Source: a virus. From it: DNA of 30,863 nucleotides. The notes below the pieces were generated by a model. The model was not told the origin of the DNA and did not search any database. It saw only the letters and a program-made list of their open reading frames with translations. The stretch covers positions 1 to 30,863 of the IMG/VR virus record IMGVR_UViG_3300014502_000024. One strand, written 5' to 3'. Of the stretch, positions 3,918 through 26,541 are shown piece by piece; the first letter of the stretch is position 1, and every line of letters begins with the position of its first letter. Position numbers and translations under genes: made by a program.

Positions 3918-3946
3918 TTGACACGAATCTAACGTTCGTATACGAT
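3918..3946 (+). promoter_or_regulatory. Strong SigA-type promoter for a leaderless gene, with operator over the -10
   Basis: The -35 box TTGACA (3918-3923) is a perfect consensus. It is followed by a 17-bp spacer and the -10 box TACGAT (3941-3946). The ATG begins at 3954, only seven bases past the -10, so transcription should start at or next to the start codon and the mRNA would be leaderless. No Shine-Dalgarno sequence is present. The palindrome TCGTATACGA (3936-3945) overlaps the -10, so a protein bound there would block the promoter. Confidence 0.8.
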
Positions 3947-3953
3947 CCTGGGT

Positions 3954-4208
3954 ATGGACCTGGATACCGCCGAACAACTGCACCGCTTTGCCGTTGAAGC
4001 ACTGGCCGAAGACGTCGCTGGCCGGGTCACGCCGGCTGAGCTATACAGGGCGTATGTGGCTTGGTACCACTCCAAGCCGAGAAAGCTCTGGGTGCTGGAG
4101 ACGCCGAACCAGCTGGGTCGCTGGATGACAATGAGGTACACCCGCCGCCGAGGCGCCACGGGATCGGTCTACCGGGGCATCAAACTGCTACCGGCAAGGG
4201 TTGGTTGA
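3954..4208 (+). CDS. Small winged-helix protein resembling the D5 helicase C-terminal domain; possible regulator
   Basis: An 84-aa product from a leaderless ATG. Residues 25-55 (VTPAELYRAYVAWYHSKP...LGRWM) and the end (TRRRGATGSVYRGIKLL) follow the pattern of the winged-helix domain found at the C-terminus of D5-like phage primase-helicases. The helicase in this window has the matching segment VSAGTLWSAYQEWC...RAAFGLALGRKF. Here the domain stands alone with no ATPase. As the first gene after the control region, with a palindrome over its own -10 box, it could be an autoregulated DNA-binding regulator or a replication accessory factor. The fold call is by pattern. The regulator role is inference. 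Confidence 0.7.
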   Translation: MDLDTAEQLHRFAVEALAEDVAGRVTPAELYRAYVAWYHSKPRKLWVLETPNQLGRWMTMRYTRRRGATGSVYRGIKLLPARVG

Positions 4209-4234
4209 CACTAGTTGACAACCCGTGATATAGT
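4205..4234 (+). promoter_or_regulatory. Second rightward promoter
   Basis: TTGACA (4205-4210, overlapping the stop of the previous gene) is followed by an 18-bp spacer and TATAGT (4229-4234). A second TTGACA at 4215-4220 has no -10 at the right distance. Transcription would start near 4241 and give a leader of about 80 bases before the GTG at 4323. This leader is rich in GCCGGC words and can form stems (for example GGGCA/TGCCC at 4244-4255). Confidence 0.6.
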
Positions 4235-4322
4235 TCGGGAGATCGGGCAACTGCCCACAGACACCAACGCCGGCAGCGCCGGCAGTTCAGCCGGCTCGGC
4301 CGGCGGAAAGGGATTCAACACC

Positions 4323-4796
4323 GTGGGTTTCACGCTTCCTACCCGAACAGCAGGCGCCGGAGCGCCGGAGATCGAGGACGGGCTCCAGCTGGCTCGCTTC
4401 GATGACCTGAAGATCGTCAAGCACCCCGACTGGGCAGGCATCGACGACTACGGCCACAACGACGACGGCCAGCGCTATCACTTCCAGTTCACCATGCTCG
4501 ACAAGGACGACCCGAACCATCCCGTCCTGGATGACTCATCCAGCGAGGGCGACCCGCTCGAACTCGAAGCGCTGACCCGTCTGGCTACAGGCGCACGGTC
4601 CGGCTTCCGTAAGCATCTCTCCAAGCTCCTGACGCCGGCTGAGTTGGCTGCCTACGACGCTGCCACTCCCGAGGATCAGTTCAAGGCGGACTTTCTGCCT
4701 GGTCGGATCGTCCACGTCTCCGTCACCCATAGCAAGGGTGGCTGGCCGCAGATCGAGTCTGTCGTCGGCATCTTCAACCCGAAGGCGGCGAAGTAG
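4323..4796 (+). CDS. Putative phage ssDNA-binding / replication accessory protein
   Basis: I choose GTG 4323 (GFTLPTRTAGAG...) because a GGAAAGG box precedes it, giving 157 aa. A longer TTG start at 4215 would lie in the -35 region and add a low-complexity leader. Visible segments are GLQLARFDDLKIVKHPDWAG, RYHFQFTMLDKDD, LTRLATGARSGFRKHLSKLL and PGRIVHVSVTHSKGGWPQIE. This mix of a beta-rich core, an LT..A helix and a late GGWP.IE strand resembles OB-like single-strand binding proteins encoded in phage replication modules. I cannot name the family firmly. The position before the replication genes supports such a role. Confidence 0.75.
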   Translation: MGFTLPTRTAGAGAPEIEDGLQLARFDDLKIVKHPDWAGIDDYGHNDDGQRYHFQFTMLDKDDPNHPVLDDSSSEGDPLELEALTRLATGARSGFRKHLSKLLTPAELAAYDAATPEDQFKADFLPGRIVHVSVTHSKGGWPQIESVVGIFNPKAAK

Positions 4797-5033
4797 ATGG
4801 CCTTCACGCCTGCCGAGATTTCTCGGCGCTTCACACATCGGCCACCCAAGAACGAACGTATCGCGGCACAACACCGCGAAGTTCGCAGCACAATGAAGTT
4901 GGCGGCTGACGTCATCTTGCTCGCTCTTCCTGACGGACGCGAAGCGTCGCTCTGCGCAACAGCCATGGAAGAAGCTCTGTTCTGGGCCAACGCCGCCATC
5001 GCGCGGCAGGAAGGAAACAACCCCGATGAGTGA
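4797..5033 (+). CDS. acb2-like: Acb2-like cyclic oligonucleotide sponge (anti-CBASS)
   Basis: A 78-aa product whose ATG follows the previous stop directly. It matches the small helical-hairpin Acb2 family. It has an N-terminal RRFTHRPPKNER loop, a central helix with REVRSTMKLAADVILLALP, then DGREASLCATAMEEALFWANAAIARQ. The signatures are the (R)F-T-x-x-P-P opening, the GRE/SREASL turn and the MEEAxxWANAAIAR helix. Known Acb2 proteins form hexamers that sequester cyclic di- and trinucleotide signals and so stop CBASS effectors. One oddity is that the usual Tyr of the FTY opening reads His here (FTH), which may alter ligand choice. The identification is from motif memory, but the fit is strong. 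It is expressed in the early rightward operon, as expected for an anti-defence protein. Confidence 0.8.
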   Translation: MAFTPAEISRRFTHRPPKNERIAAQHREVRSTMKLAADVILLALPDGREASLCATAMEEALFWANAAIARQEGNNPDE

Positions 5034-5430
5034 CATCGTCCGCATCAACGGCCGGGCCTACACCCGATCCCGTGCCATCGCTCTCGGACTGATTTCCGAG
5101 GCGGGCACAACGGCCAAGGAGTTCGTGGTCGTTCCGCCAGCCAAACCGACGAAGTTGGGCCGGCCGAAGGGTTCGGTCAACAAGGTTCGTACCCCCGGCC
5201 CGATCCTTTCCCAGACCGATCCCGTAGACGACATCATCGCCTCCATACCGGTTCTGCCGCCAATCAGGCCGACCAAGAAGATCAAGCCGCTCGTTCCACA
5301 GAACGTCGATGCCGGCGTGCCGATCACCGACCCCGACACCCTCGCCGAGATCGTGGCGCGGACCAACGAGATTGAAGCGGCGCGACTCGCGAAGCTCGCT
5401 TCCGCTGACGGCACCGCCAGCGGCGAGTAG
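5026..5430 (+). CDS. Hypothetical protein with an AT-hook-like GRPKGS motif
   Basis: A 134-aa product overlapping the previous gene by eight bases, with an AAGGA-type box ten or so bases upstream of ATG 5026. Residues 45-53 read GRPKGSVNK, the core of an AT-hook or similar minor-groove-binding element. The surrounding sequence (VVVPPAKPTKL, VLPPIRPTKKIKPLVP) is Pro/Lys-rich and likely extended. The ends are short helices (RAYTRSRAIALGLISEAG, LAEIVARTNEIEAARLAKLA). It probably binds DNA non-specifically or tethers another protein to DNA. The family is not recognised. Confidence 0.75.
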   Translation: MSDIVRINGRAYTRSRAIALGLISEAGTTAKEFVVVPPAKPTKLGRPKGSVNKVRTPGPILSQTDPVDDIIASIPVLPPIRPTKKIKPLVPQNVDAGVPITDPDTLAEIVARTNEIEAARLAKLASADGTASGE

Positions 5431-5433
5431 CCG

Positions 5434-5598
5434 ATGAGTCCACAACACGCACCCGTCTTCGAGCGCTTCGGTGCCATGCACTGTTCGGTCTGCGGTCGGA
5501 TAGCGACGTTCGTACTCTCATACTTCAAGTGGGACTTCGAGTTCAACACCTGGAGACCGTGCGGGTACTGGCGTCATCGTCCGAAGGGTAGGGTGTAG
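5434..5598 (+). CDS. Small zinc-ribbon-like protein, 54 aa
   Basis: This short gene starts at ATG 5434, three bases after the previous stop, and ends at TAG 5596-5598, one base before the next ATG. Translation gives Cys17-x2-Cys20 (HCSVCGRIA) and a late Cys43 with nearby His (RPCGYWRHRP), a pattern that fits a treble-clef or ribbon zinc site. The middle is aromatic (LSYFKWDFEFNTW). The tight fit between its neighbours and the intact motif argue that it is real despite its size. Function unknown. Confidence 0.7.
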   Translation: MSPQHAPVFERFGAMHCSVCGRIATFVLSYFKWDFEFNTWRPCGYWRHRPKGRV

Positions 5599-5599
5599 C

Positions 5600-5809
5600 A
5601 TGAGCACCTACGAAATCCCGGTCGGCGCGACCAAGCCGAAGACGCTCTCGGAGTGGGCCAGGTTTCTTGGCTGCTCCGTCGAGACACTTCGCCGGGCCTA
5701 CCGACGCAAGGAGCTTCTCGCCACACGTCAGCCGCTCGCCCCAGGACGAACCCTGGAAGCGACACCGGCAGACATGAGAGCGTTCCTGGAAAAGCGCAGG
5801 GCGCGCTGA
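5600..5809 (+). CDS. Excisionase-like / MerR-type HTH DNA-binding protein
   Basis: A 69-aa product. Residues 15-50 (KTLSEWARFLGCSVETLRRAYRRKELLAT) have the HTH_17 pattern seen in phage excisionases and small MerR-like regulators: a helix, a turn with GCS, and a recognition helix with LRRAYRR. It is followed by a short wing (APGRTLEATPADMRAFLEKRRA). The ATG lies one base after the previous stop. A TAGGGT element five bases before the ATG resembles the leaderless -10 boxes elsewhere in this window but could be chance. Since no integrase is visible, a regulatory or replication-control role is as likely as excision. Confidence 0.75.
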   Translation: MSTYEIPVGATKPKTLSEWARFLGCSVETLRRAYRRKELLATRQPLAPGRTLEATPADMRAFLEKRRAR

Positions 5810-5816
5810 CGCGTCA
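5807..5816. promoter_or_regulatory. Palindrome TGACGCGTCA at the end of the HTH gene
   Basis: This perfect 10-bp palindrome overlaps the stop codon of the small HTH gene and precedes the triple-hairpin segment. It may be an operator for that protein. Evidence is limited to symmetry. Confidence 0.35.
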
Positions 5817-5825
5817 AACCATATG

Positions 5826-5908
5826 AGGCCAATGGAGACTTGGCCTTCCCCGGTGGTCTCCTCCGGGGTTTGGGGGAGCCCGAGCGCACGCGTTGTCTCG
5901 GGCTCCCC
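5826..5908 (+). ncRNA. Three consecutive hairpins upstream of the primase gene
   Basis: Hairpin 1 pairs AGGCCAA (5826-5832) with TTGGCCT (5840-5846). Hairpin 2 pairs CCCCGG (5848-5853) with CCGGGG (5863-5868). Hairpin 3 pairs GGGGAGCCCGAG (5873-5884) with CTCGGGCTCCCC (5897-5908), a perfect 12-bp stem. Gaps between them are one and four bases. No T-tract follows hairpin 3, so a simple intrinsic terminator is doubtful. The AAAGGA box of the primase gene begins ten or so bases later. It may be a regulatory leader, an attenuator or a stable small RNA. Confidence 0.6.
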
Positions 5909-5925
5909 GTCAACTGAAAGGACAC

Positions 5926-9564: not shown

Positions 9565-11260
9565 AGGCTGGGAGAACCTGAAGCCGTCAGCTGAGGAGTT
9601 TCAGCGCGGTCGCTGGGACTTCAAGCGTTGGTGCTGGGTCTACTTCGGTGTGCTCATCAACCCCGGCCAGGATCGCATGGGCGATCTCTACCTGCGGCGC
9701 ACGGATTCCCGCTGGCGAGCGTTCTTCCTCTGGCTGATGATTGCGGCCGGCAACCGTGCCGGCAAGACGCTGGGCCTAGCGCTCATCATCGCCCACTCTT
9801 GCACCTACCGTATGGGTCTTCAGCCTCCCGACGACATCACCGATGCGGCGCAAGTGGAACACTGGGGACACATCCCCTATCACTGGTGGCACTTTGCGGT
9901 CGAGCAGGGGCCGGCCGAGCAACTGTTCAACGAGCTAGCTCTGCTCTGGGGTGGCGTTCACCCGGCACAGAAGCACGGCTGTCCCTGGTCGGATCAGGTT
10001 GGTGGTGCCGACAAGATCGTGACCCTGACCGATACGGGCCTCGGACCGTGGTGTACTGGGGCGAAGGAGCGTGGCGAGTACGTTTGGATCAGGTTTGCGC
10101 CGGAGTTCGGCGGCGCCGAAATCCACTTCCGGTCCACCAAAGCCAAGGCCCTCTCGTCCATTGGTCAGAACATGCACGGTGTGTCGTTTGACGAGGCTGG
10201 TCTGGAGAGCAACTTGAACTGGCTCATCAGTGAAGTGCTGCATGCTCGCCGATTGGGAACTGGCGGTCAGTTCATCCTGATCTCGACGCCGTCGATTGAG
10301 ACGAGCGTGGACTTCCAAGACCTGTGGGCCACGGGCGACCCCGAGGACCCGTTTCGGGAGAGGTACCGCGCCAGCATGAGGATGTCGTCCCGGGAGAACA
10401 TCGGCTATGGTTTGGACGAGGAGACGTTCGACCGGATGATCGAGGGGCAGTCGGAGGACTGGATCGCTCAGAATATCGACGGCAAGTTCATCCAGGCCGC
10501 TCTTGCCTGGTTCCACACCCAGTCGGTAGACGCCATCTTCAACCCCAATTTGCCTGTCGAGGAGGCCCCCCAGCCCGGCGCCGTCTACATTCACGCGCTG
10601 GACCCGGGGCTGAAGGACAAGTGCTGGAGCATGGTGGTCAAGGTACTGCCGAGCGGGAAGGCTATCGGTGTATCGCTGACGCGCCAGAGCGGAAAGCAGA
10701 CCGCGCGAGGAATCGTCCTGCTCGGGAAGCGCGACCACCACAAGTACGCACAGGGCGGCAAGTCGTGGATCGAGACGGGCGTAGACACGACGGCGCTAGG
10801 CGGACATATGTTCCGCGACTTGCTGGAGGACGACGACGAGAACTACCCGGGCATCCCAGTCAGGACGGTAGAGTTCGGCGGGGTGTCTCAGGTCAAGCGC
10901 AAGATGCTGTCCGACGCCCGCACTGCCATTGAAGACATGCGGATCGAGTTTCCGACAGGGGGATACTGGCCTGAGGTTCGCAAGCAGTTACGCAACTACA
11001 AGCTCCTCGACCGGAAGATCGAGCAGGACTTGGTCATGGAGGTTTCCATTGTCGTGAAGCTCCTGCGGGCGGCGCCGACGCAAAGCGAGCGAGTGCCGGC
11101 CCGGTTCGAGTACGGTGTCCCCGAGCCAAAGGCGAACGATGGGCTCAATTCGGCGGGGCTGAGGCGGTCGATGACCGCTCACCGACTAGCCAAAAGGGCG
11201 GCGGTTGCCGCCGCGTTGACGGACACGGAGGACGCATCTACACTGAGACGCGATGGCTGA
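9548..11260 (+). CDS. terL: Terminase large subunit
   Basis: A 570-aa product from ATG 9548 with a GGAGG-type box upstream, overlapping the small subunit by 17 bases. The ATPase has Walker A AAGNRAGKT (66-74), Walker B HGVSFDEAG (Asp215, Glu216) and the coupling motif LISTPS. The RNase H-like nuclease has HALDPG (Asp352), VDTTALGGH (Asp413) and a later acidic region. It cuts concatemeric DNA and pumps it into the prohead through the portal. Length and motif order are normal. A TACACT promoter element for the portal gene is embedded in its last codons. Confidence 0.93.
   Translation: MAKPPKGWENLKPSAEEFQRGRWDFKRWCWVYFGVLINPGQDRMGDLYLRRTDSRWRAFFLWLMIAAGNRAGKTLGLALIIAHSCTYRMGLQPPDDITDAAQVEHWGHIPYHWWHFAVEQGPAEQLFNELALLWGGVHPAQKHGCPWSDQVGGADKIVTLTDTGLGPWCTGAKERGEYVWIRFAPEFGGAEIHFRSTKAKALSSIGQNMHGVSFDEAGLESNLNWLISEVLHARRLGTGGQFILISTPSIETSVDFQDLWATGDPEDPFRERYRASMRMSSRENIGYGLDEETFDRMIEGQSEDWIAQNIDGKFIQAALAWFHTQSVDAIFNPNLPVEEAPQPGAVYIHALDPGLKDKCWSMVVKVLPSGKAIGVSLTRQSGKQTARGIVLLGKRDHHKYAQGGKSWIETGVDTTALGGHMFRDLLEDDDENYPGIPVRTVEFGGVSQVKRKMLSDARTAIEDMRIEFPTGGYWPEVRKQLRNYKLLDRKIEQDLVMEVSIVVKLLRAAPTQSERVPARFEYGVPEPKANDGLNSAGLRRSMTAHRLAKRAAVAAALTDTEDASTLRRDG
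11216..11244 (+). promoter_or_regulatory. Leaderless promoter for the portal gene
   Basis: TTGACG (11216-11221), a 17-bp spacer and TACACT (11239-11244) lie inside the end of the large terminase gene. The portal ATG starts at 11253, eight bases after the -10, so an mRNA from here would begin at about the start codon. A GGAGG in the spacer is too far upstream (over 20 bases) to serve as a ribosome binding site. Confidence 0.6.
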
Positions 11261-13265
11261 CCGGAACTATGCTGATCTGACCCTGACGGGGGCGCTTGCC
11301 CTGATGGCTCCGGACGACGACGTTTCGCTGCAAAGGAAGCTGGCGGAACGCATTTCTTCGATTGCCACTGAGCAGGACATCTTCAAGGCTTTCTGCGACC
11401 GGTTCGATGAATTGTACTTCACGACCACCGTGGGTGGCACGGCGAACGGAGGCCAGGGCTGGGGGGCCGATCTCTGGGCTGATGACCCCTCTGCGAGTAC
11501 CCCGGGTCGATCCCACATCTCGATCAACACTCCCTCGGTCTACGTGGATGTGCCGGCGTCGCTCCAGGCGGTTGAGCCGGTAGAGGACATGGCGCCCACC
11601 AAGGATTCGATAGAGGCTCGTCACGCCGCAAACGACCTGGAGAGGGTTCGCAAGGCGTGGAAGAACGAGTATCGCTGGCAGATGAAGCGTCATAAGGCCG
11701 CTACCGTCAAGGCGCTGTACGGCCGGACCGCGTCGTACGTCTACTATGACCGCGACGACAAGAAGCCGAACGCCAAGATCGTTGAGAACCCCCGCAATCT
11801 ATACCTGGGCTACAAGAGCGATGACCACGAGGACTTGGAATGGGCTGCTCGGGTGGAGCTTGTGGACCCGCAGTCCTGCGTGGAGCGCTTCAGCGTAGTA
11901 CTTGGGGACAAGGAAACCCCGTCAGGGCTGCACATGCCATGGGTGGTGGGTCTGGGGGATCAGATTGCCGATCTGCCGCATCCCGAGTTCAACTACGGGC
12001 CGGCCAAGATTGAGGTCTGGGACTACTGGTACCGCAAGCCGACCAAGATCGGCAAGGGTGGTCAGCCGACCAAGATGGAGACCTGGAACATCGTGGTCGC
12101 TGGCAACTTTGTAGTGCGTGGCCCTACGAAGTATGTTGAGTACGAGGGTGTCATCCCGTACATTCCGCTCTACAACACGTACATCCCTGGCACGCCGACC
12201 GGACGCTCAGAGCTTCATGACATGGAAATCCTGATCCGCGAGAAGATGACGCGGGTAACGGCTGGCGCGCAGATGATTGCGCGAGCCACGGCGGGCGACT
12301 ATTGGCAGTTGGTGGGACCGGACGCATCAAAGGTGGATGCGGGCGCGAAGCCGAAGCTCAACGAGGTGGTTGCCCCTGGTGCCGGCAACCGCATCGAGGC
12401 GATCACCCCGTTCGTGGCCCAGTTCCAGCTGGAGCAGTTTCTCGGCCGAATAGACCGCGAGATGGCGATTGTGTCGGGCCTCAACGATTTGCTGTTGGGG
12501 CTGGCGCCGGCTGCTGTCCTGAACTCCTCGAAGGCCATCAATGCCCTGATCGCCAACTATGAGAGCCGTATCAGCATGCGGCGCCTGCTGTTCTACACCT
12601 GGGACAACGCGACCTGGAAACTCGTTCTGAAGGTCTGGGCCAAGAAAGACGAGACTGTGCGCGCCGTTCTCGCCGCAGGTGGGGGCACGCTCCAGATTAC
12701 TGATCCGTCTCTCTCGCCAAAGGACGAGATGGAGACCGCCCAGCGCGCCATCAACCTCGTCAACAGCAAGCTCTGGAGCCTGGAGCGGGGCATGGGTGCT
12801 GTAGGCGTCGAGGACCCGGAGCAGGAGCAGGAGCTTATCCGCATCAACCAGACCGACGCGACACTGAATCCGGCCAGCGTTCAGGTGATGGCCCAGCTGA
12901 TGGGCGCTCTCCAGGCGCTCGGTCTCCAGGCTCCGCAGGGAGTTCAGAAGCAAGTAGCGGGCCAGCAGGCATCGGGTACTGAAGCGCTGCGGAATGCTCT
13001 TGGAGCGGCTACGCCAACAGGTACGGTCGGTTCGCAGGGTCCTGGAAACCAGGGTATCACGCCTCCGATCCCGGGCGCTCCGTCTGAGGCTGGCGGACCT
13101 TCGACATCTGGCGGCCCTGGCGGCGAGGTAAGTTCGGCGCCGTTTGCGCAGCCACAGCCCGGTGCGGCCGGCACGCCGCAGTATCAGGCCCAGATGCAGG
13201 ATTTGATGCAGGGTGGTCAGTCGAGAGGCCGGATAATGACCACCCGTAACTTGGGACGTAGGTAA
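11253..13265 (+). CDS. Portal protein with Gly/Pro-rich C-terminal tail
   Basis: A 670-aa product overlapping the terminase end by eight bases. Portal-type features include the N-terminal helical region, SHISINTPSVYVDVPASLQAV, GRTASYVYYDRDD, MEILIREKMTRV, and FVAQFQLEQFLGRIDREMAIVSGLNDLL. The last is the long helix region before the crown. It forms the dodecameric ring through which DNA enters and leaves the head. Residues from about 560 on are Gly/Pro/Ser/Gln-rich (TPTGTVGSQGPGNQGITPPI) and end with an MQDLMQGG helix. That tail is longer and less ordered than in most portals and may face the head interior or bind the next gene products. Confidence 0.9.
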   Translation: MADRNYADLTLTGALALMAPDDDVSLQRKLAERISSIATEQDIFKAFCDRFDELYFTTTVGGTANGGQGWGADLWADDPSASTPGRSHISINTPSVYVDVPASLQAVEPVEDMAPTKDSIEARHAANDLERVRKAWKNEYRWQMKRHKAATVKALYGRTASYVYYDRDDKKPNAKIVENPRNLYLGYKSDDHEDLEWAARVELVDPQSCVERFSVVLGDKETPSGLHMPWVVGLGDQIADLPHPEFNYGPAKIEVWDYWYRKPTKIGKGGQPTKMETWNIVVAGNFVVRGPTKYVEYEGVIPYIPLYNTYIPGTPTGRSELHDMEILIREKMTRVTAGAQMIARATAGDYWQLVGPDASKVDAGAKPKLNEVVAPGAGNRIEAITPFVAQFQLEQFLGRIDREMAIVSGLNDLLLGLAPAAVLNSSKAINALIANYESRISMRRLLFYTWDNATWKLVLKVWAKKDETVRAVLAAGGGTLQITDPSLSPKDEMETAQRAINLVNSKLWSLERGMGAVGVEDPEQEQELIRINQTDATLNPASVQVMAQLMGALQALGLQAPQGVQKQVAGQQASGTEALRNALGAATPTGTVGSQGPGNQGITPPIPGAPSEAGGPSTSGGPGGEVSSAPFAQPQPGAAGTPQYQAQMQDLMQGGQSRGRIMTTRNLGRR

Positions 13266-15802: not shown

Positions 15803-18800
15803 TGTTGAACATGCCAGGGTCCAAGCCTGGCTCGGGAGCTACACCCGCTCCGATTGGTACGGGTCAGCAGCCCGGGTTTAGCATGCCTGACATTCAGCCC
15901 GTGGCGCCGGCCGTCGATCCCGGTTCGCACCCCAACGAAGCTCCGTGGGATACCCTCGGGCGGGTGTTGTGGGGCTCGGGGTCTGAAGGCGGCACACTGG
16001 GACAGATACCTCTCGTTGGGGACGTTGCGCGCTTCCCCGGAGAGGTGGTGCGGAATGTAGCAGCGACGGGCTTGGGCGTGCCCGAGGTGATGAACGCTGC
16101 CTCGAACCTGCTCGGTAACCTTCCGTCCCCGGGTACGGACACTGGCAACGTCAAGAACGTAGCCGCCAACCAGTCGGCCAAGGGGATCAACCCGCTCGAT
16201 ACCAATCGATACCCCAAGACGCCGGACGGTGCGATGGCGTTCGTGACGGACATCCACAAGGAGAACATTGCGACCCAGTTTCAGTTGCTCGGGGAGTGGC
16301 AGAAGGTGAATGACCCGGAGGCGTATGCCGAGTGGCAGAAGACGCTGGCGGACGCCCAGAGCAAGATCGTTGAGTTCGGTCCTCTGGAGCTTCAAGCGAA
16401 GGCTGCCGAGACCCTGTCGAATTACGTGCGGCAGGAATCGGTCAGATACGCCGACACGACGACGGAGGGCGTGCAGGGTCTCTATGATATCGCCCCCGAA
16501 CTGGCGTTCGGCGGGGAGGGATCGCTGGGCCAGGGCTTCTCGGACGCCCTGACGCACCTCCTGATTCCCCAGCGCAAGGCTGAGGAGGGGCTGTCGTTCT
16601 TGTCGGGTCGCCAGGGTGGGTTGTTTCAGCCGTTGTACGACCTGTCGTCGGGTCTGCCCTCCAACTTGGGATCACGACTCAACAACCTGCTCTCGGTGCC
16701 GTTCGACAAACTGACTCCGGTTGAGCAGCAGGTTGTGACCGGCATGAAGGAACAGGGCTGGACGAACAAGCACGCCTACAACTTCCTGGTGTCTCACGGT
16801 CAGGGGTTCTCGTCTGACCCTGGTTCGGAACTCGCCATGTCGGTCTCTCTGGACCCGCTTCAGGTTGCGATGTTGGGTTCGTCGGCGGCGGCTGCTATCC
16901 CTGCCCGAATCGCTGGCATCACCAACGACGCTCGGTCAGCCAATCGGATCATGCGGACGATCCAGGAGGCGGCTGACGCCCTTGGAACGACCGTCTCGAA
17001 GGTTCGGGATGACCCGGTGATGGGGCCGAAGTTCCGGGTTGCCCGGCAGGTATTGAACTTCGGTATTCCGAGCGGTGGTCCGAGGGTGGCTGCGAAGCTC
17101 GACGCCACGGCGGCTGTTGGTATCGAGGGCTTCAGGCTGGGCATGGGGCCAACGGCAGTCAAGGACGCTGCGAGTCGTGCGGCTCGTCTTGACGTATCCA
17201 AGGAGGCTCTTGACACCGCAGAGGGCGTGTCGGCGATGAACAACGTACGCAAGTGGGGCATGGAACAACTGGTCAAGGAGGGGATGGGCAAGACCATCTT
17301 GCCGGGTGATGTCGTGTCGGAGGAGCAACTGCAATTCGCTTTGCACAACGCGGCGGCGGACACCAAGACGCGCATTGCTGAGTACACACAGAAGAACCGA
17401 GAGTTCTTCCTCACGCAGTCGGGCCAGGATGCGCTTGCTGAGCGCTTCGCGAAGTTCATTCAGCGTCCCATCGCCGAGGCCAAGACTGAGGTTGCGCAGA
17501 TGTCGCGCGACGAGCAGGCGTACTGGCATTACCTGACCTTCAGTCAGGCCGATTCGGCGTTCCGCAACGTAGTGTCGGGCATCGCTCCGGAAGCGTGGGG
17601 GAACTTCGCCAGCAAGGTCGGAGACCTGGCGCTCCTCAACCCGCAGGAGTTGGATCGGGTGGCGGCCCAGAACCTCGTATCGGCGATCCAGAAGGCTACG
17701 CCGGAGGAGGCGCTGCGTCTCTGGAATGAGGCGGCCGGCCAATACAGTCTCGTGGATAGCATTGGCCGTGTGACCACAGGCGGTACTCACATGCTGGACC
17801 GTCGGGTGAATCAGTTGCAGAATATCATCGAGCAAGGGCGTTTGCACTCCGCACTCGATGTCTCGGAGATGAAGTCGCTACCGGCCCAGTTCAAGCGTCA
17901 GTTCCTTGACGCTTGGGTGGACAGTGAGGGCAACCCGATCTGGCGCCTGGGCTTCAAGCCAACAACGGATCAGGCTACAGGACTGATGATGGATGCGGAC
18001 GGCAAGTTGACGATGGCCTACGCGCCAATGGTAGACAACGTTTCGGACGCGATCCCTCATCAAGTAGGTCGGGTGCGTATGCTAGTGGACCCACTGGGTC
18101 GGGCCATTCCGCAGGCCGTCAAGGATTCTCGATTGGCGAAGGCTGCCGGTCAGATGGGTGACGCGATGGAGGTGCTGCATCAGACCGCCATGGACCGCAT
18201 CTCCGGCGAGAGAATGATGGTGTCGATGGAGCAGTCGTTCCGCCGGCAGTTGCGGTCATACGAGGGTGCGGCCATCCCGGACTCAGTCGCCAAGCGTGTG
18301 TTCCGGCTCTCCCGGGAATACAGTCAGGACCACAGCTTCACCATTGCGGGCATGAGCCCCGACGATTTCTGGCGGGCTTCGGAGGCGGAACTGAAAGACC
18401 TTGTCGGCGCCAATGTCGGCAAGCGTGACATCTACACCATGCTGGCGAAGGCAGCTGGCGGGGACGTGCGCACGCTCGGTCTGTCCAGCTGGACAACGCA
18501 GCGCATTCGCTCCTCCTTGATCGCTCGGGGACTGGACCGCAACAACTACCTCGGGGCCGTGACGATCAAGCTCTACAACTCGTTGCGGTATGCCCTGAAC
18601 CCGTTGTTCTTCATTCAAGCTGAGTTCGACGCGCCGTGGTTCAATATGTATCGCGGCGTGATCCCGGACCTGTTGGGTCGTGCGCCGAAACCGGGCACAC
18701 CTGAAGCTGAGATGGCGAAGGTCATGCACACGATGGGGCACACAAGTCTGGCGCGTGATCTCCAGATGGACTTCACCGAGCGCATCACCAATATCGGCTG

Positions 18801-21783
18801 GCAGCGCGCTTTACAGGAGGAGCTTGCTTCGCTCCCCGGCTACGAGCGCAACCTTGGCGAGAAGTTCAAGCGCTGGTCGGGCCAAATGGTCATCAACAAC
18901 GAGTTGAAGTACATCAACTCGCAGGCGGGCCAGATGGTCTTCGATGCGCTGGGGACGGTGCGCAAGATGGTAGAGGACAAGATCGCCAACGCCGCTTCGG
19001 ACGCGGAGCGCGAGGTGTGGGTCAACGTGCGTCAGGATCAGGTGCCGATGCTCAGTTACTTGCGCGAGGAGGAGTCGAAGCGCCTGGGCCGGCTGGCAAC
19101 AGACAACGAGGTGGGCCTGCGGTACCTGACGGAGATTCTCGATGACGCAATGGCTGAGGACCGTACGCCGGAGGGGATGCTGAGCTATCAGAAGCAGTTT
19201 ACGAAGGCTGAGTACCACAAGCCGACCGACATCGGCGAGTTGCGCCCACTGGGGCTCGACGGTGGCGCCGCCTCTCTGGGCCTGCCGAATGTCAGTTCGG
19301 CCGCGACGCTGCGTGCGGCGCTCGGACGCGGGGCGTACACCCTTGGGGACGTATCCGACATGATGAAGACGCTGGGCTATCACCCCGACCACATCAAGCG
19401 TTTCACGACAGCCCTGATGTTCAACTGGCGCGACTACTTCGACGGTCTGGCGTCCGATCTGGGCATGACGCGGACTGAGATGCAGGGCGTCGAGACCATG
19501 ATCTTCAAGGCGGCCAAGCTCCAGAAGATGCCGGCCGTGGACTATCTCACCCAGGTTATGCCGATGACTACCGCCAAGGGCATTGACAGCGAGATGAAGT
19601 TCACGCTCGACGTGATGCGCGCCGCCAAGAAGGGTGAGGCCGGGATGGACCAGATGACCAAGCTGGTGACGGGCCACCTTCAGCCGTCGATGAAGGCGCG
19701 GCTGCTTGACCACTTCCTGGAGCGGATCACTGGCCCCAACGGGCTGATTGAGACGGCGATGGCGGCCGGCGACCATCAGACGGCCCAGAGCTTGAATCAA
19801 GTGGCCGAAGACCTAAGGGGTGGTTGGGGGCCGACTGCTGACAATCAGTTCCGTGACCTCGTGATTCGACGTGCCGGCGGCGAGACGGGTGTGGCTGGCG
19901 CTTCGGTGGCGGCTGTGCCGGAGGGGTTCACGACGAACGCCATGGAGATCAACGGGGGCCTGGCGTATCCCGCTGGTCTGAAGCGCGAGGGGTTCTTCCA
20001 CGCCACGACGAACATGCCAGCGGTGCTGCGAGATGGGCTGAAGTCGTCAGATGAACTGCCGGCCGGCACTCGCGGTCTTGGGTCGGCGGGCGACCGCAAC
20101 ATGATTGGTCGCACTCCGTTGGTGCAGGACCGTGCCGTGGCACAGGAGATGGCTGATCGTCTGAAGTTGACGTCTCAGATTGCGAAGGGCGAGGTCAACT
20201 ACGACCAGATGTTGGACGCTTTCCGACCGGCCTATAAGGAGGCTTTCGGGGACGGAGCCGAGGCTGAGATGCAGAAGGCGCTCGCCGCTCAGGCACCTGT
20301 TGATACTGTTGGTCTGGGGAAAGTCAGTGAAGCTACGACGGAACCCGGCTATGTGTATCACACGACCGGTGCAGACAATGCTACTGACATCTCGACGGAC
20401 AAGCTCCGGCCTCAATCGACTCGCTATCGTGACGAGCAGGCGGCATGGCCTGATGGCGGAACTGGTAAGCGCATTTACTGGAACCGTAACGCTAAGGCGG
20501 TCGAGAAGTTCCAGCCGGAAGGCAAGACGGCCATTCTGCGAGCCAGGGAGGCCGATGTTTCGGGATTGACTGATGAGCGGTATACAGGTGACAGCTTCTC
20601 CAATAAGGCTCTGTCACCCAACAAGCTCGAAGTTCTCGGAGGAGATGGTCAGTGGCATCCTCTGGATGAGTTCTATCGTGTCGCTGTCCCTACAGCAACT
20701 GACCCGAAGGAGATTTGGGCAGCCGCCCATCAGCTTGATAGTCAGCTGCCGGGCTTCAAACACGTCACTATGAACCCAGACTTCGAGACGGCTAAGAACT
20801 GGGTAACTGAGGACATCGGCGTGGTCAATGCGGCGGTCAAGAAGTCGTTTGGCCTGGACGTGAAAGAGGGGATGGACACAAGCAAGGGTGAGTTGGACTT
20901 CTTGACGAAGGACGTTCGGGTTCTTGCGCCAGGGGCCGTTCGGGAGATCGCCGAGCCCGAGGTGGAGCGCGCTGCCCGCTACTTCAGTCAGTGGATGCAG
21001 GAGGTCGGCCCGCAGTTCCAAGCCGGCGAGGTGCTGAAGGGGATCGCGCAGAACATCCCCAAAGATGGCGCGTCGCCATACGACTTCACGCAGGCGGCGA
21101 TGCTGCACGTGCTCTCGAACAACTTGCGTCTGACGGAGACGGACGCGTTCCGGCTCGCCAACATCAACCCACAGCGCACGGTGCTGGAGCGGTCGTTGAA
21201 CCACCCGTTCTTCGCGATGTACCCCAGTTCGTACTTCTGGGGCAAGGTGGTGCCGGAGACCATACGGTTCCTGGCCTACGAACCGTTCGGGATTCGCACT
21301 GGGGCGATGCTTGACCAATACTACAAGGTGCAGCAGAGCATCGCGCTTCAGTCGCAGTACGACCCGCGCATCAAAGACCTGTGGGACAAGGTCGGCAAGA
21401 GCGCCGTGATGGGGCTGCTGTCGTACATGTCGCCGTCTTTCCCGTGGGAGGACATGAAGTCCAGTCTGCCGCCGTGGGTGCGAGCTATGGCAAAGCATCA
21501 GGACTTCTCCACGATGCTCGACTCCGAGTACAACCTGTTCAACCCGAAGCGCTGGACGGATCGGTTCCTTGAAGCGGCCGGCGAAGCGGGCCAGGCGTAC
21601 TCGGCTGTCAACCCATTGACGTCGAAACAACAACAGCAGTTGCAGCAAGTGAGCGCAACGCCGAGTACGGCGACGCCGACACAGGCTGCACCTGACCTCA
21701 CACAACCGGTACAGGGAACTCAGTTGGGGCCGACTCTGGAGAGTCAGCTTCAGCAGTTGCAGCAAGTGTTGCGGAGCAGATGA
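15802..21783 (+). CDS. Giant internal virion / polyvalent-type protein with two ART-like segments
   Basis: A 1993-aa product whose ATG overlaps the previous stop (ATGA-type). It occupies the slot between portal and scaffold where MuF-type proteins and ejected effectors lie. The first 1390 residues are mostly helical with no motif I can name (for example YALNPLFFIQAEFDAPWFNM near 930-950). Residues 1394-1500 (EGFFHATTNMPAVLRDGLKS, then VQDRAVAQEMADRL) and 1514-1621 (GYVYHTTGADNATDI, KRIYWNRNAKAV, LSPNKLEVLGGDGQWHPL) both have the pattern of ADP-ribosyltransferase-like domains: an early His-x-T strand, a middle aromatic strand and, in the second, a late LEV strand. A further helical region (SLNHPFFAMYPSSYFWGKVV) and a Gln-rich tail follow. 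It is probably packaged and injected to act on host proteins early. The ART call is by pattern only. Confidence 0.8.
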   Translation: MLNMPGSKPGSGATPAPIGTGQQPGFSMPDIQPVAPAVDPGSHPNEAPWDTLGRVLWGSGSEGGTLGQIPLVGDVARFPGEVVRNVAATGLGVPEVMNAASNLLGNLPSPGTDTGNVKNVAANQSAKGINPLDTNRYPKTPDGAMAFVTDIHKENIATQFQLLGEWQKVNDPEAYAEWQKTLADAQSKIVEFGPLELQAKAAETLSNYVRQESVRYADTTTEGVQGLYDIAPELAFGGEGSLGQGFSDALTHLLIPQRKAEEGLSFLSGRQGGLFQPLYDLSSGLPSNLGSRLNNLLSVPFDKLTPVEQQVVTGMKEQGWTNKHAYNFLVSHGQGFSSDPGSELAMSVSLDPLQVAMLGSSAAAAIPARIAGITNDARSANRIMRTIQEAADALGTTVSKVRDDPVMGPKFRVARQVLNFGIPSGGPRVAAKLDATAAVGIEGFRLGMGPTAVKDAASRAARLDVSKEALDTAEGVSAMNNVRKWGMEQLVKEGMGKTILPGDVVSEEQLQFALHNAAADTKTRIAEYTQKNREFFLTQSGQDALAERFAKFIQRPIAEAKTEVAQMSRDEQAYWHYLTFSQADSAFRNVVSGIAPEAWGNFASKVGDLALLNPQELDRVAAQNLVSAIQKATPEEALRLWNEAAGQYSLVDSIGRVTTGGTHMLDRRVNQLQNIIEQGRLHSALDVSEMKSLPAQFKRQFLDAWVDSEGNPIWRLGFKPTTDQATGLMMDADGKLTMAYAPMVDNVSDAIPHQVGRVRMLVDPLGRAIPQAVKDSRLAKAAGQMGDAMEVLHQTAMDRISGERMMVSMEQSFRRQLRSYEGAAIPDSVAKRVFRLSREYSQDHSFTIAGMSPDDFWRASEAELKDLVGANVGKRDIYTMLAKAAGGDVRTLGLSSWTTQRIRSSLIARGLDRNNYLGAVTIKLYNSLRYALNPLFFIQAEFDAPWFNMYRGVIPDLLGRAPKPGTPEAEMAKVMHTMGHTSLARDLQMDFTERITNIGWQRALQEELASLPGYERNLGEKFKRWSGQMVINNELKYINSQAGQMVFDALGTVRKMVEDKIANAASDAEREVWVNVRQDQVPMLSYLREEESKRLGRLATDNEVGLRYLTEILDDAMAEDRTPEGMLSYQKQFTKAEYHKPTDIGELRPLGLDGGAASLGLPNVSSAATLRAALGRGAYTLGDVSDMMKTLGYHPDHIKRFTTALMFNWRDYFDGLASDLGMTRTEMQGVETMIFKAAKLQKMPAVDYLTQVMPMTTAKGIDSEMKFTLDVMRAAKKGEAGMDQMTKLVTGHLQPSMKARLLDHFLERITGPNGLIETAMAAGDHQTAQSLNQVAEDLRGGWGPTADNQFRDLVIRRAGGETGVAGASVAAVPEGFTTNAMEINGGLAYPAGLKREGFFHATTNMPAVLRDGLKSSDELPAGTRGLGSAGDRNMIGRTPLVQDRAVAQEMADRLKLTSQIAKGEVNYDQMLDAFRPAYKEAFGDGAEAEMQKALAAQAPVDTVGLGKVSEATTEPGYVYHTTGADNATDISTDKLRPQSTRYRDEQAAWPDGGTGKRIYWNRNAKAVEKFQPEGKTAILRAREADVSGLTDERYTGDSFSNKALSPNKLEVLGGDGQWHPLDEFYRVAVPTATDPKEIWAAAHQLDSQLPGFKHVTMNPDFETAKNWVTEDIGVVNAAVKKSFGLDVKEGMDTSKGELDFLTKDVRVLAPGAVREIAEPEVERAARYFSQWMQEVGPQFQAGEVLKGIAQNIPKDGASPYDFTQAAMLHVLSNNLRLTETDAFRLANINPQRTVLERSLNHPFFAMYPSSYFWGKVVPETIRFLAYEPFGIRTGAMLDQYYKVQQSIALQSQYDPRIKDLWDKVGKSAVMGLLSYMSPSFPWEDMKSSLPPWVRAMAKHQDFSTMLDSEYNLFNPKRWTDRFLEAAGEAGQAYSAVNPLTSKQQQQLQQVSATPSTATPTQAAPDLTQPVQGTQLGPTLESQLQQLQQVLRSR

Positions 21784-21793: not shown

Positions 21794-21822
21794 TTGACAA
21801 ATCCGTGTAAACGGTGTAGAAG
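21794..21822 (+). promoter_or_regulatory. Candidate late promoter for scaffold and capsid
   Basis: A perfect TTGACA (21794-21799) is followed by a 17-bp spacer and TAGAAG (21817-21822). The -10 keeps TA and two A residues but lacks the usual last T. It sits in the 49-base gap before the scaffold gene, a sensible place for a strong head-gene promoter. The leader would then include the AAAGGA ribosome binding site. Confidence 0.4.
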
Positions 21823-21832: not shown

Positions 21833-22378
21833 ATGGGAAACGACGCAAATGACGCAAGCAACGATCAGGTAGCGACCCCCGAAGGTGAGGGCTCTCCCGT
21901 TGAGACCCCGAAGCCAGAGGGCTCGGACCCGGCCGCTGAAATTGCCTCGATGCGCAAGCGCCAGGCCGGCGCAGAAGCAGCGCGCAAGATCGCTGAGGAC
22001 AAGGCCAAGGACCTAGCTGCCAAGCTCGTAAAGTACGAACTGGCAGAACAGACCGAGGCCCAGAAGGAACTCACCGAGACGGCGCGACTGACGGCGCAGG
22101 TCGCATCCGAGAAGAAAAGGGCTGACGAAGCGGAGGAGAAGGCCAACGGCCGGATTCTTGACGTCAAGTACCCGAACGCTCGGAAGGAATTGCCGGAACT
22201 GACCGATGAGGTCCGTCTGGCAAAGTTCGAGGCCATGCTGAGTGACGGAGAGCCAATCACTCCCCTTCAGCACAGCGAGTCCAGGGGAACAGCTGGGGCG
22301 GCCCAGCCGAAGGAGGAGACGGCGGCAGAAGTCCGCGCTCGCCTCCTGAAGATGCCGCTTCCGGGATACCCCGCCTGA
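21833..22378 (+). CDS. Capsid scaffolding protein
   Basis: A 181-aa product from ATG 21833 with an AAAGGA box six bases upstream. The composition is classic for a scaffold: an acidic, disordered N-terminus (EGEGSPVETPKPEGSDPAAE), then a long charged coiled coil (about residues 38-105: RKRQAGAEAARKIAEDKAKD, AEQTEAQKELTETARLTAQV). A short C-terminal helix ends in a basic patch (VRARLLKMPLPGYPA) that usually binds the capsid protein. It lies directly before the major capsid gene. It guides prohead assembly and leaves or is cut before DNA fills the head. No protease gene is visible nearby. Confidence 0.88.
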   Translation: MGNDANDASNDQVATPEGEGSPVETPKPEGSDPAAEIASMRKRQAGAEAARKIAEDKAKDLAAKLVKYELAEQTEAQKELTETARLTAQVASEKKRADEAEEKANGRILDVKYPNARKELPELTDEVRLAKFEAMLSDGEPITPLQHSESRGTAGAAQPKEETAAEVRARLLKMPLPGYPA

Positions 22379-23427: not shown

Positions 23428-23432
23428 CAGCC

Positions 23433-23452
23433 CTGGCGGTTCTGTCCGCCAG
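23433..23452 (+). repeat. Hairpin after the capsid gene
   Basis: CTGGCGG (23433-23439) pairs perfectly with CCGCCAG (23446-23452) around a six-base loop, five bases past the capsid stop. It precedes the stronger terminator hairpin and may protect the mRNA 3' end. Confidence 0.55.
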
Positions 23453-23456
23453 CCCG

Positions 23457-23489
23457 AGACCCCCGGTGTGCAAGCGCCGGGGGTCTTGC
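23457..23489 (+). terminator. Intrinsic terminator-like hairpin after the capsid gene
   Basis: A perfect 10-bp GC-rich stem, AGACCCCCGG (23457-23466) with CCGGGGGTCT (23477-23486), has a ten-base loop and is followed by a short TTGC. The T-tract is weak, as in many high-GC hosts. It would insulate abundant capsid mRNA from the tail genes, whose own promoter starts at once downstream. Confidence 0.65.
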
Positions 23490-23495
23490 TATACT
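23467..23495 (+). promoter_or_regulatory. Leaderless -10 promoter for the Dit-like tail gene
   Basis: TATACT (23490-23495) is a near-consensus -10 only six bases before ATG 23502, with no ribosome binding site. At 17 bp upstream the -35 would be TGTGCA (23467-23472), a weak match inside the terminator loop. Despite the weak -35, this gene has no other visible initiation signal. Confidence 0.5.
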
Positions 23496-23501
23496 GCTCG
23501 C

Positions 23502-24410
23502 ATGGACCAGAACGAAGACATCGAGTACCGAAGCTACCTCCTGAACGACAAAGACGTTGCAGCCAATGCCGAGGCTGGCAGGGTGACCGGCTCGACGGTG
23601 GAGACGGTTGATTTCAGCGACGTAGACGTGGTTCAGTTCACAGAGAAGCGGTCCGAACAAGACGGTATGGATGCCGGCGATGTCTTCCTGGGGGCACGTC
23701 GAGTCAACATGACGGGTACCCTGTACGGCAAGACGCGAGCCCTGCTGTACGACGAGTACCGCGCCTGGTCGGCGGCGCTGAGTCCGGTGTTGGCCCAGAG
23801 GGAGAGTCCGGCCGACAAGGGCTTCCGGCCCCTCTATTTCAAGATGCCCACGGCCGACACGGTGAACTACCCCGACCTCCTGATTCCGCTCCAGGTCTTC
23901 GCGTTGCCGCGCGCCAAGAAGGTGACGTGGGCCAGGAAGCAGCAGGGCGGCAAGGATACCGACGCCCTGGCGATCCCGTGGGCTGCGACCCTGCTCCAGA
24001 AGGACCCCGGCATTTACGGTCGGGACGCCCAGAACTACGCCCTGACGGCAGGAGGCCAGATATTCGGCAACCTCGTCAATCGCGGAACGTACATCGCTCG
24101 TCCCAACATCATCGTCACGGTCGGTGCAACTGCCGGCGCCATTCTGTTGCAGATCGGTGGTTCTGCCATGACCATCAACGTGCCGGCCTCATCGGGCAAC
24201 CGGATCATTCGCTACAACGGTCAGGAGAAAGTGCTGACGGTCGAGGAGAACAATGCTGAGAATCCCCGGTTTGACATGCTGGACCTGGGGTCTTCCGAGG
24301 CGCATCCCGTTATCCCGCCGGGGACGTCGGCGTACGAGGTGGCCTTCTCAACGGGAGTAACCCCGCAGGTTGGAAGCCGTCTCTGGTTCTACGAGGCGGT
24401 GGCCGGCTGA
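23502..24410 (+). CDS. Distal tail (Dit-like) protein
   Basis: A 302-aa product from the leaderless-type ATG 23502. The early segment SDVDVVQFTEKRSEQDGMDA and the later GARRVNMTGTLYGKTRALLY match the N-terminal strands of siphovirus distal tail and related tail proteins. There a G-x-i-x-x-x-G-x-l strand pair precedes the RALLYDEYRAW helix. The C-terminal part (FGNLVNRGTYIARPNIIVTV, NRIIRYNGQEKVLTVEENNA) is a beta-sandwich as in Dit galectin-like domains. It would link the tail tube to the hub encoded downstream. The family call is by pattern. Another tail-tip protein is the alternative. Confidence 0.7.
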   Translation: MDQNEDIEYRSYLLNDKDVAANAEAGRVTGSTVETVDFSDVDVVQFTEKRSEQDGMDAGDVFLGARRVNMTGTLYGKTRALLYDEYRAWSAALSPVLAQRESPADKGFRPLYFKMPTADTVNYPDLLIPLQVFALPRAKKVTWARKQQGGKDTDALAIPWAATLLQKDPGIYGRDAQNYALTAGGQIFGNLVNRGTYIARPNIIVTVGATAGAILLQIGGSAMTINVPASSGNRIIRYNGQEKVLTVEENNAENPRFDMLDLGSSEAHPVIPPGTSAYEVAFSTGVTPQVGSRLWFYEAVAG

Positions 24411-24411
24411 G

Positions 24412-25851
24412 ATGATACCGCCGATCCTACACCGCGTTGCCATTGGCACGCCCCCGCCCGACGCTGAGCGCTGGTGGGCCAAGTTTGCCAAGCTCCACCC
24501 GACCTGGCAGCTGATTACCCACACTCCCGAGCCAGAGAAGTTCCCGCGCACCGCTCCTCTATGGCCGAAGTGCGCGAGCCTGGCGCAGCAGGCAGACTTC
24601 ATGCGGTATGAAGTCCTGGCCCGAGATGGTGGCGTGTACGTCGATTGGGACGTAGAGCCCTATCAGTCATTCGATCCCCTGCTCGGCCTGAAGGGTTTTG
24701 CGGGCTGCGAAGCGCCGGATCGCACCGGCAACGCCGTGATGGGATTCGAGCCAGGTCATCCTGCGGTGGAGGCAATCCTGACTGTGGCCGTCGCGGAACT
24801 GGAGAAGCCTCGGCCGGACGCGATGTCGATTGGTCCGTTGGCTGTTTCTCGGGTCTGTATGGGGCGCGACGACGTGCTGATCCTGCCCCCGGGAACGTTC
24901 TATCAGATGCCGTGGGAGGAGCGCCAGAAAGCGGAGGACGGGGGCTATGTGCGTCCGTGGGTGTACGCGGTACACCGCTGCCACCATTCCTGGGGCCTGC
25001 CGATTACGACTCGGCCGCCTCGGCAAGAGCCACAGCGAACGTCGCTGACCTGGCGACAGCGGCAGGGGTTGGACCCAGGCCCGGCCAAAGCGACCTCTGT
25101 TCCTCTCGGGAAGATCGGAGCCGTGATCCCGACACGGTTTCATCCGAAGCAGCTGGAACCGCTGTGCCAAGTGCTCAAAGAAGACGGCGTTGAGGTGATT
25201 GTTCAGGAGAGTGAGGACTTCGGCCACAACATCCACAAGATGTGGAACGATGGCGTGGCTCGACTGCGGGCGGCCGGCTGTACCGTCGTCGCGATTCTCA
25301 ATGACGACATCGAGATGGCGCCAGGCACGCTGGCGTTCATGGAGAAGGCTCTGCGTGCTACTCCGAAGACGGGCGTGATCTGCTGCGACACGTCGCCCGG
25401 CCGACTTCGGATCAAGTCCAGGCAACGACCCCAGGTCCCCGACCGCATTCGGGTATCGCTATCCATGAAGGGCACCAACATCAACCAGGAGGGCTTCGCC
25501 TTTCTGTACGACCCAACAGACCCCGACGTGCCGATCTTCGATGAGACCTACCATATCTGGCACGGCGACATCAAGTTCTTCGACACCCTACGGTACCGGG
25601 GTCGCGCGGTCGGCACGGCGATGGGCCTGGTGATTGTCCACGAGACGAGTCACTCCACCAAGCGCGTGCTGAAGACGGACAACATCTGGGGCGATCTGAA
25701 CGAACAAGTAGCTGCTGGGAATGCCGACGCGATTCCGTTCCTGGAGGATGTACAGAGAGCCCATCTGGAGCGTTACCCGGAGGAAGTCCGAACACCTCAG
25801 AACGACGTGATCGACGCAGTAGCAGTTGCGTCAGCCCCATCGAGCGCCTAG
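24412..25851 (+). CDS. Two-domain glycosyltransferase in the tail module
   Basis: A 479-aa product whose ATG follows the previous stop by one base. The N-terminal domain begins IPPILHRVAIGTPPPDAERW and includes ADFMRYEVLARDGGVYVDWD, with Asp78-x-Asp80. This is the sugar-binding DXD pattern of the Gly_transf_sug (OCH1-like) family. The second domain begins near residue 240 (IGAVIPTRFHPKQLEPLCQV) and has VVAILNDDIEM (Asp298, Asp299), the GT-A family 2 DXD-like motif, plus a late IWHGDIKFFDTLRYRGRA. Two sugar transferases in one protein imply a disaccharide addition or two linked steps. Likely targets are the phage's own tail or capsid, or host surface glycans. The target is not shown by sequence. 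Confidence 0.85.
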   Translation: MIPPILHRVAIGTPPPDAERWWAKFAKLHPTWQLITHTPEPEKFPRTAPLWPKCASLAQQADFMRYEVLARDGGVYVDWDVEPYQSFDPLLGLKGFAGCEAPDRTGNAVMGFEPGHPAVEAILTVAVAELEKPRPDAMSIGPLAVSRVCMGRDDVLILPPGTFYQMPWEERQKAEDGGYVRPWVYAVHRCHHSWGLPITTRPPRQEPQRTSLTWRQRQGLDPGPAKATSVPLGKIGAVIPTRFHPKQLEPLCQVLKEDGVEVIVQESEDFGHNIHKMWNDGVARLRAAGCTVVAILNDDIEMAPGTLAFMEKALRATPKTGVICCDTSPGRLRIKSRQRPQVPDRIRVSLSMKGTNINQEGFAFLYDPTDPDVPIFDETYHIWHGDIKFFDTLRYRGRAVGTAMGLVIVHETSHSTKRVLKTDNIWGDLNEQVAAGNADAIPFLEDVQRAHLERYPEEVRTPQNDVIDAVAVASAPSSA

Positions 25852-25854
25852 ACT
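25826..25854 (+). promoter_or_regulatory. Leaderless promoter for the connector-like gene
   Basis: TTGCGT (25826-25831), a 17-bp spacer and TAGACT (25849-25854) lead to ATG 25861 six bases later. The TAG of TAGACT is also the stop codon of the glycosyltransferase. No Shine-Dalgarno sequence is present. Confidence 0.55.
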
Positions 25855-25860
25855 ACAGGC

Positions 25861-26541
25861 ATGGCGACGACCTACTCGCAACTGCAAACCAAGCTCGCCC
25901 GCGTGCTGTCGGACCCGGACAAGACTACGTTCCAGGCAGACACACTGAAGGACATGATCGCTGCGGCGTGGGCAGACGTCAGCGACATCACGCCGATGCG
26001 GTTCACCGAAGACATCACGCCCATCGCCGACACGTCGTCATACTTGCTGCTAGGAGACGTCTTCGGTGGTCCGGTGGATGATGTTTCTGTCGTGAACGTC
26101 GAACTGTGGCGGGGGGTGCCGACGAAGAAAGCCTGGCAACAGCTGGAGCCGATGTCGAAGCATCCGACCGGGCTGACCTACTCGCAGGCAGGGTGGTACT
26201 TCTGGGCCGGCTACTTGATGCTGCCAGACCGCTACATGGACCTGATCGACCCGGCGCGGGACATGATCCGGGTCCGTGGATACTGCCCGTGGCCGCCGGT
26301 CTCTGGCGACAATGACTACCTGCCGTTTGGCGCCCAAGTGGAGGAAGACATCATCCTGGTCTGTCGGATCGAGGCTCTGCGACGGCTGACCGGCAGCCGT
26401 GCGTTGTTTACACAGTGGCAGACGCGGACGAACAACACTGACGTCTCGATGGCTTCCCTGGACAGCAATCTCTCCGTGGCCATCCAGGAGTGGATGCGCA
26501 AGAGCAACCGCCACCGCATTATCCGAGAGGCACCTGGGTGA
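25861..26541 (+). CDS. Head-tail connector-like protein
   Basis: A 226-aa product from ATG 25861. The N-terminus (YSQLQTKLARVLSDPDKTTF, then LKDMIAAAWADVSDITPMRF) is the two-helix opening usual in head-completion and connector proteins of the gp6 type. The middle is beta-rich with a tail-like strand (LIDPARDMIRVRGYCPWPPV). A helix (EEDIILVCRIEALRRLTGSR) and a basic C-terminus (EWMRKSNRHRIIREAPG) follow. It probably joins the portal to the tail. It lies unusually far downstream, after a tail protein and a glycosyltransferase, rather than next to the capsid gene. The call is by pattern. Confidence 0.65.
   Translation: MATTYSQLQTKLARVLSDPDKTTFQADTLKDMIAAAWADVSDITPMRFTEDITPIADTSSYLLLGDVFGGPVDDVSVVNVELWRGVPTKKAWQQLEPMSKHPTGLTYSQAGWYFWAGYLMLPDRYMDLIDPARDMIRVRGYCPWPPVSGDNDYLPFGAQVEEDIILVCRIEALRRLTGSRALFTQWQTRTNNTDVSMASLDSNLSVAIQEWMRKSNRHRIIREAPG

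Follow-up and report, generated by a model that had tools for sequence, protein, structure and literature searches.

The window analyzed here is the whole of IMG/VR record IMGVR_UViG_3300014502_000024 (positions 1 to 30,863; 30,863 bases, 62% GC), and our subject is a set of predicted promoters within it whose -10 boxes lie so close to a start codon that the messages may be leaderless, beginning on or within a few nucleotides of the first codon. Leftward genes fill the first 3.2 kb. The plus strand carries, in order, early and replication genes (prim-pol, D5 helicase-like), terminase, portal, genes for two large proteins, a putative scaffold, and the major capsid, followed by genes for tail-like, glycosyltransferase-like, 226-aa, and large structural proteins. 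Terminase and portal gave no tblastn match among 50,697 phage records; the capsid protein has distant similarity only, to Streptomyces phages, and the distant isolate matches of the VRR-NUC protein are Arthrobacter phages. The features on which the argument draws, including any Shine–Dalgarno (SD)-like sequence, are as follows.

3782-3793 (perfect copy, ATCGTATACGAT) and 3935-3946 (TTCGTATACGAT, over the -10 box), plus strand: two copies of the palindrome CGTATACGAT
3918..3946, plus strand: promoter TTGACA-N17-TACGAT, 7 nt before ATG 3954
3954..4208, plus strand: gene of 84 aa that opens the rightward early operon, predicted leaderless
4205..4234, plus strand: leadered promoter TTGACA-N18-TATAGT, a contrast case, about 85 nt from GTG 4323
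11216..11244, plus strand: portal promoter TTGACG-N17-TACACT, 8 nt before the ATG, inside the end of the terminase gene
11253..13265, plus strand: portal protein gene (PHROG portal, E 7.6e-5; relatives 50-60% identical)
21794..21822, plus strand: TTGACA-N17-TAGAAG, promoter of the scaffold/capsid operon, 10 nt ahead of ATG 21833; an SD-like AAAGGA overlaps it
21833..22378, plus strand: putative scaffolding protein gene (weak PHROG scaffold match, E 0.016; position before the major capsid gene; relatives)
23455..23488, plus strand: 15-bp hairpin after the major capsid stop (fold; two-sided covariation of the homologous stem)
23487..23495, plus strand: TGC-TATACT, an extended -10 that follows the hairpin immediately, 6 nt ahead of ATG 23502
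23502..24410, plus strand: predicted leaderless gene for a tail-like protein (PHROG minor tail, E 2e-4; orthologues 46-50% identical)
25826..25854, plus strand: promoter TTGCGT-N17-TAGACT, 6 nt before ATG 25861; its TAG doubles as the stop codon of gene 24412-25851
25861..26541, plus strand: 226-aa virion-region gene, predicted leaderless (weak similarity to an SU10-type adaptor, E 0.014, below the Pfam cut-off)

Promoter geometry in the window and its relatives

A preliminary description of this DNA had listed -10 boxes shortly before the ATGs at 3954, 11253, 23502 and 25861, and all four re-read as given. The -35 at 23502 is indeed weak, with no TTG at a spacing of 16-18 (TGTGCA stands at 17). 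None of the four sites has an SD of at least four bases at a usable distance, apart from a meaningless GATC at 3954. The first T of TANNNT falls 12-14 bp upstream of the start codon at each of them, and a SigA-type layout (TTGACA-like -35, 16-18 bp spacer, TANNNT) is present at three; the start codon is ATG at all window sites and ATG or GTG in relatives. The contrast drawn with leftward genes, nearly all of which were said to use GAGGT, holds for the six of eight that have GGAGGT or GAGGT, but one of the others has AAAGGA and one is coupled by its stop and start codons. What had been omitted is that most other rightward genes are also SD-led or overlap the preceding stop codon; the four sites therefore stand out against both strands.

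Across both strands of the window, TTG-N16-18-TANNNT-N5-9 precedes three of 845 ATGs, and all three are predicted gene starts. A Markov model of the window yields a mean of 0.195 such matches, with three reached in 1 of 400 runs; since these very sites had served to define the pattern, the estimate is post hoc, and the relatives accordingly provide the independent test. Portal, capsid, and tail-protein queries recovered about 35 IMG/VR contigs and two contigs from metagenome-assembled genomes, the latter binned as Myxococcota, phage-like around the match and perhaps misbinned. We scored TTG-N(sp)-TANNNT-N(d)-ATG at each ATG on both strands of 34 sequences, whole or in long pieces and with the window included (768 kb), without gene calling. 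Only a spacing of 17 with d = 6-11 is enriched, at 39 matches after removal of two near-duplicates, against a Markov expectation of 3.15 +/- 1.68 (maximum 7); ten other spacings gave 1-7 matches each, and spacing 17 at longer distances gave 4-6. Distances of 13-24 show no excess, contrary to what ordinary leadered promoters would lead one to expect. On the strength of the map and its Markov control, we reject a chance origin. At 90% identity, 40 matches fall into 36 clusters; repeated copying of a single sequence therefore does not account for the excess, although related phages still share ancestry.

The preliminary description had staked its claim on conservation of the boxes in related genomes. 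Conservation is evident for 11253 and for the 23502/25861 regions; the counterparts of the 11253, 23502, and 25861 promoters are not always leaderless at the same gene.

Junctions of the virion units

The best-conserved site, the scaffold start (21833 in the window), was missing from the earlier list. TANNNT-N6-11-ATG occurs there in 21 related lineages (designated here, like other relatives, by handles in G or L where they must be told apart), with TTG at exactly 17 in 15 of them; the -35 at that spacing is mostly TTGCAA or TTGACR.

Conservation of the portal promoter became apparent only after closer relatives were added and is confined to one subclade (G001, G015, G016/G017, G018, G019, G020, G022), in which the box lies 8-15 nt from the start or precedes a short open reading frame (ORF). 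Five contigs have a TAGACT whose TAG is itself the terminase stop codon, at box offset 0. The short ORF is a four-codon, GTG-initiated GTGAGTnnnnnnTAG lying 9 nt after a TAGACT or TACACT box, and its stop overlaps the portal start (TAGTG); it is found at G016 5272, G018 16517, and G022 14429 (contig coordinates; L107, L110, L115). Such a mini-ORF could possibly act as a leaderless re-initiation module. A separate case occurs in G001 (L023:13903-13929), where TTGCAG-N17-TAGACT-N9-ATG opens an eight-codon mini-ORF that overlaps a 100-aa gene at 13922, holin-like by eye.

The capsid/tail junction adds a second element. A hairpin follows the capsid gene in all 20 contigs compared, and TANNNT lies 6-12 nt before the next start in 17 of them; in 11 of the 20, TTGC falls within the hairpin loop, and the hexamer that begins there is exactly 17 nt from the -10. 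The stems covary on both sides, at many positions and in both loop registers, and the loop-to-box distance stays fixed throughout. Where the -35 falls out of register, as it does in the window and G019, the -10 is extended instead (TGC-TATACT and TGC-TATCAT, respectively). More distant contigs lack the hairpin. The hairpin at 23455-23488 is stable and GC-rich and, given its fold and the covariation of the homologous stem, is likely a terminator; the stem end and the bases beyond it hold just a few T (TCTTGCTATACT), and a terminator scan made no call.

Intrinsic terminators that adjoin a downstream promoter are familiar: a GC hairpin follows a highly expressed gene, and a new promoter stands next to it. 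The junction described here shares that plan, but differs in that one subclade places the -35 in the hairpin loop, a fixed 17 nt from the -10, and in that the -10 lies 6-12 nt before the next start codon. It points to a terminator and a promoter fused into one compact element. Nothing relevant on promoters nested within terminators came from a literature search, which is weak evidence of absence.

Farther downstream, the 25861 orthologue of L049 is preceded by TAGACT-N6-ATG, and the gene after the tail gene in G011 has TACACT-N7-ATG; further matches in the post-tail region precede other ORFs of G001, G015, G016, G019, and L065. The window gene between the tail and adaptor-like genes (24412-25851) appears to be an insertion encoding a glycosyltransferase DXD-type protein (PF04488, E 2.7e-8), and G003 has another glycosyltransferase-like ORF, by eye, in the same place.

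By consensus the best promoter is that of the early gene at 3954, which has no homologue among the relatives and no Pfam or PHROG match. Its -10 overlaps a palindrome that is repeated upstream, which suggests repressor control, with the copies at 3782-3793 and 3935-3946 as the candidate operator of a phage repressor. The neighboring gene 4323 is led by an SD (AAAGG), and its orthologues in relatives are SD-led with a leader.

Probable leaderless messages and the alternatives

In bacteria, a -10 box 6-7 nt before a start codon places the transcription start on the codon, and one at 8-11 nt leaves 1-5 nt. We consider it probable, at roughly 0.75, that sigma-70/SigA-type promoters start transcription on, or about 0-5 nt from, the first codon of the first gene of each unit. 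The heads of the late units (portal, scaffold/capsid, the post-capsid tail gene, and the next virion genes) would then be expressed from leaderless or nearly leaderless mRNAs, as would one early gene in the window, and genes inside each unit would be SD-led or coupled through overlapping stop and start codons. The hairpin after the capsid gene, probably a terminator, would end one unit, with the promoter of the next built into it. We infer from this arrangement that the host probably translates leaderless messages well, and that it is probably a high-GC actinobacterium.

Several observations weigh against this proposal. The predicted transcript starts follow from the position of the -10, and translation of leaderless messages by the host is assumed; in the mycobacterial data discussed below, moreover, the start codon itself forms the 5' end. 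The scaffold site of the window is degenerate, with a poor -10 and an SD-like AAAGGA. Scaffold starts are SD-led in distant relatives (L050, L051/L052, L058) and in L066, which indicates that the initiation mode changes at a conserved promoter position. In G018, G022, and G016/17 it is the four-codon mini-ORF, and not the portal start, that the portal promoter precedes. At the tail site of some relatives an SD-like GGAG separates the box from the ATG, and the starts in G002-G004 have apparent SDs. Orthologue-by-orthologue conservation at every reported site also fails for 3954, whose gene has no homologue, and as a rule for 25861, where most relatives with the orthologue are not leaderless at that gene.

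Some of these points favor an alternative that we regard as unlikely: the promoters may be real, with transcription starting slightly upstream or variably, so that 5-15 nt leaders support short-leader, SD-like, or coupled initiation and "leaderless" is an overstatement. Many relatives have box-to-ATG distances of 8-12 nt, which imply short leaders and not strictly none; portal distances reach 12 and 15 in G001 and G019, and the purines at the tail site and at window 21833 are of the kind such initiation would use. However, the distances are sharply confined to 6-11 with no tail, and the 6-7 nt sites (3954, 23502, and 25861 in the window, and those of L049, G002, G003, G013, and G011) are too tight for an SD to fit after the box.

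It is far less probable that the TTGC-type late boxes form a phage-specific class that needs a phage activator or a modified polymerase and not host SigA. Among 36 distinct matches, 21 have C and 7 have A at position 4 of the -35, scaffold sites often contain the palindromic ATTGCAAT, and early promoters use TTGAC; but a spacing of 17 and TANNNT are ordinary sigma-70 features, and no phage sigma factor or polymerase was recognized in the 1993-aa protein of the window or in 78 genes of three relatives, among the matches listed, which took in 25 of 53 PHROG families. Such a class would, in any case, be compatible with leaderless messages. Equally improbable, and already largely refuted, is that the boxes are chance AT-rich matches near short junctions, with expression by read-through of a long late transcript and translational coupling: the portal ATG at 11253 does overlap the terminase stop, making coupling possible, and two of the boxes run into coding sequence or a stop codon, but this would leave unexplained why, over 768 kb, a single spacing and distance is in roughly twelve-fold excess, as well as the conservation at non-coding junctions, and the fixed 17-nt link from hairpin loop to -10 despite varying stem and loop register.

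Returning to leaderless or nearly leaderless initiation, the preliminary description had proposed that the phage uses two initiation modes, perhaps to keep early and structural genes active when normal initiation is altered. The two modes do appear to coexist, since conserved leaderless-type promoters adjoin SD-led and coupled genes. The pairing of early with structural genes is not supported: most of the sites open late (virion) units, and in relatives the counterpart of early gene 4323 has both a leader and an SD. No evidence emerged that the arrangement guards against altered translation. A simpler reading is that transcription units start compactly in a host well able to translate leaderless mRNA; in such a permissive host, the saving of space from promoters inside gene ends and stop codons that double as -10 bases accounts for the data equally well. 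More tentatively, and with less than even chances, a phage-specific TTGC-N17-TANNNT class, 6-11 nt before the start, may launch leaderless virion-unit messages, with the capsid/tail terminator and promoter forming one element whose -35 is the hairpin loop, such that termination and re-initiation would set the capsid-to-tail ratio.

Related systems and neighboring features

The message for the lambda cI repressor is a well-known leaderless phage mRNA, and the predicted messages here would likewise begin at the start codon; cI, however, is a maintenance gene of an enterobacterial phage, whereas here a series of late structural units is involved.

TANNNT about 12 bp upstream of the start has been used to identify leaderless genes in high-GC bacteria (PMC3160421), and the leaderless, or TA-led, genes of Actinobacteria and Deinococcus-Thermus lack an SD and begin with ATG or GTG (PMC3160421; PMC4633059). 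An ATG or GTG at the 5' end suffices in mycobacteria, while E. coli gives about 10% of leadered expression (PMC4633059). The sites at 3954, 11253, 23502, and 25861 resemble TA-led genes in box position, start codon, and lack of a usable SD; the scaffold site at 21833 differs from them in the last respect. Unlike TA-led genes, those described here belong to an uncultured phage family, stand mainly at the heads of late virion units, and have a -35 partner at exactly 17 bp. Leaderless promoters have also been predicted in Cluster O mycobacteriophages (PL1, PR2, PL2; PMC4351075) and are thus a known kind among phages. The genomes are unrelated, as the absence of a terminase or portal match among the phage records indicates, and in the present family the layout is seen repeatedly, at the scaffold, portal, post-capsid, and following virion genes, once in combination with a hairpin. 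As far as a search of the open-access literature shows, a set of late genes that share a conserved, fixed geometry, with a -35 placed in the loop of the hairpin before it, is apparently undescribed.

The result is a signature at the sequence level, conserved within an uncultured phage family, that may mark leaderless expression of late virion genes, including those for capsid assembly. With it one can test whether leaderless initiation serves highly expressed phage genes, and whether its use tracks host type. Because SD-based gene callers can misplace such starts, the signature also helps start-codon annotation.

Other features of these genomes merit brief mention. Two leftward genes, G001 28200 (-) and G015 944 (-), are similar by eye (MAQQRSLPEK / MANQRSAQEK) and both have a promoter-like box 6-7 nt before the ATG, possibly marking a leaderless leftward gene. 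The 1993-aa ORF at 15802-21783 is kept in relatives; it has no Pfam match and one PHROG match of unassigned function (residues 1512-1624, E 7e-14). The intergenic stretch at 3543-3653 holds three tandem 24-nt copies (period 21) and two flanking 31-nt copies, possibly iterons of an origin or for binding of a regulator. Finally, the 78-aa protein encoded at 4797-5033 has a match above the cut-off (PF24729, E 1e-13) to the Acb2/Tad1 hairpin domain and is likely a cyclic-nucleotide sponge against CBASS/Thoeris-type defence.

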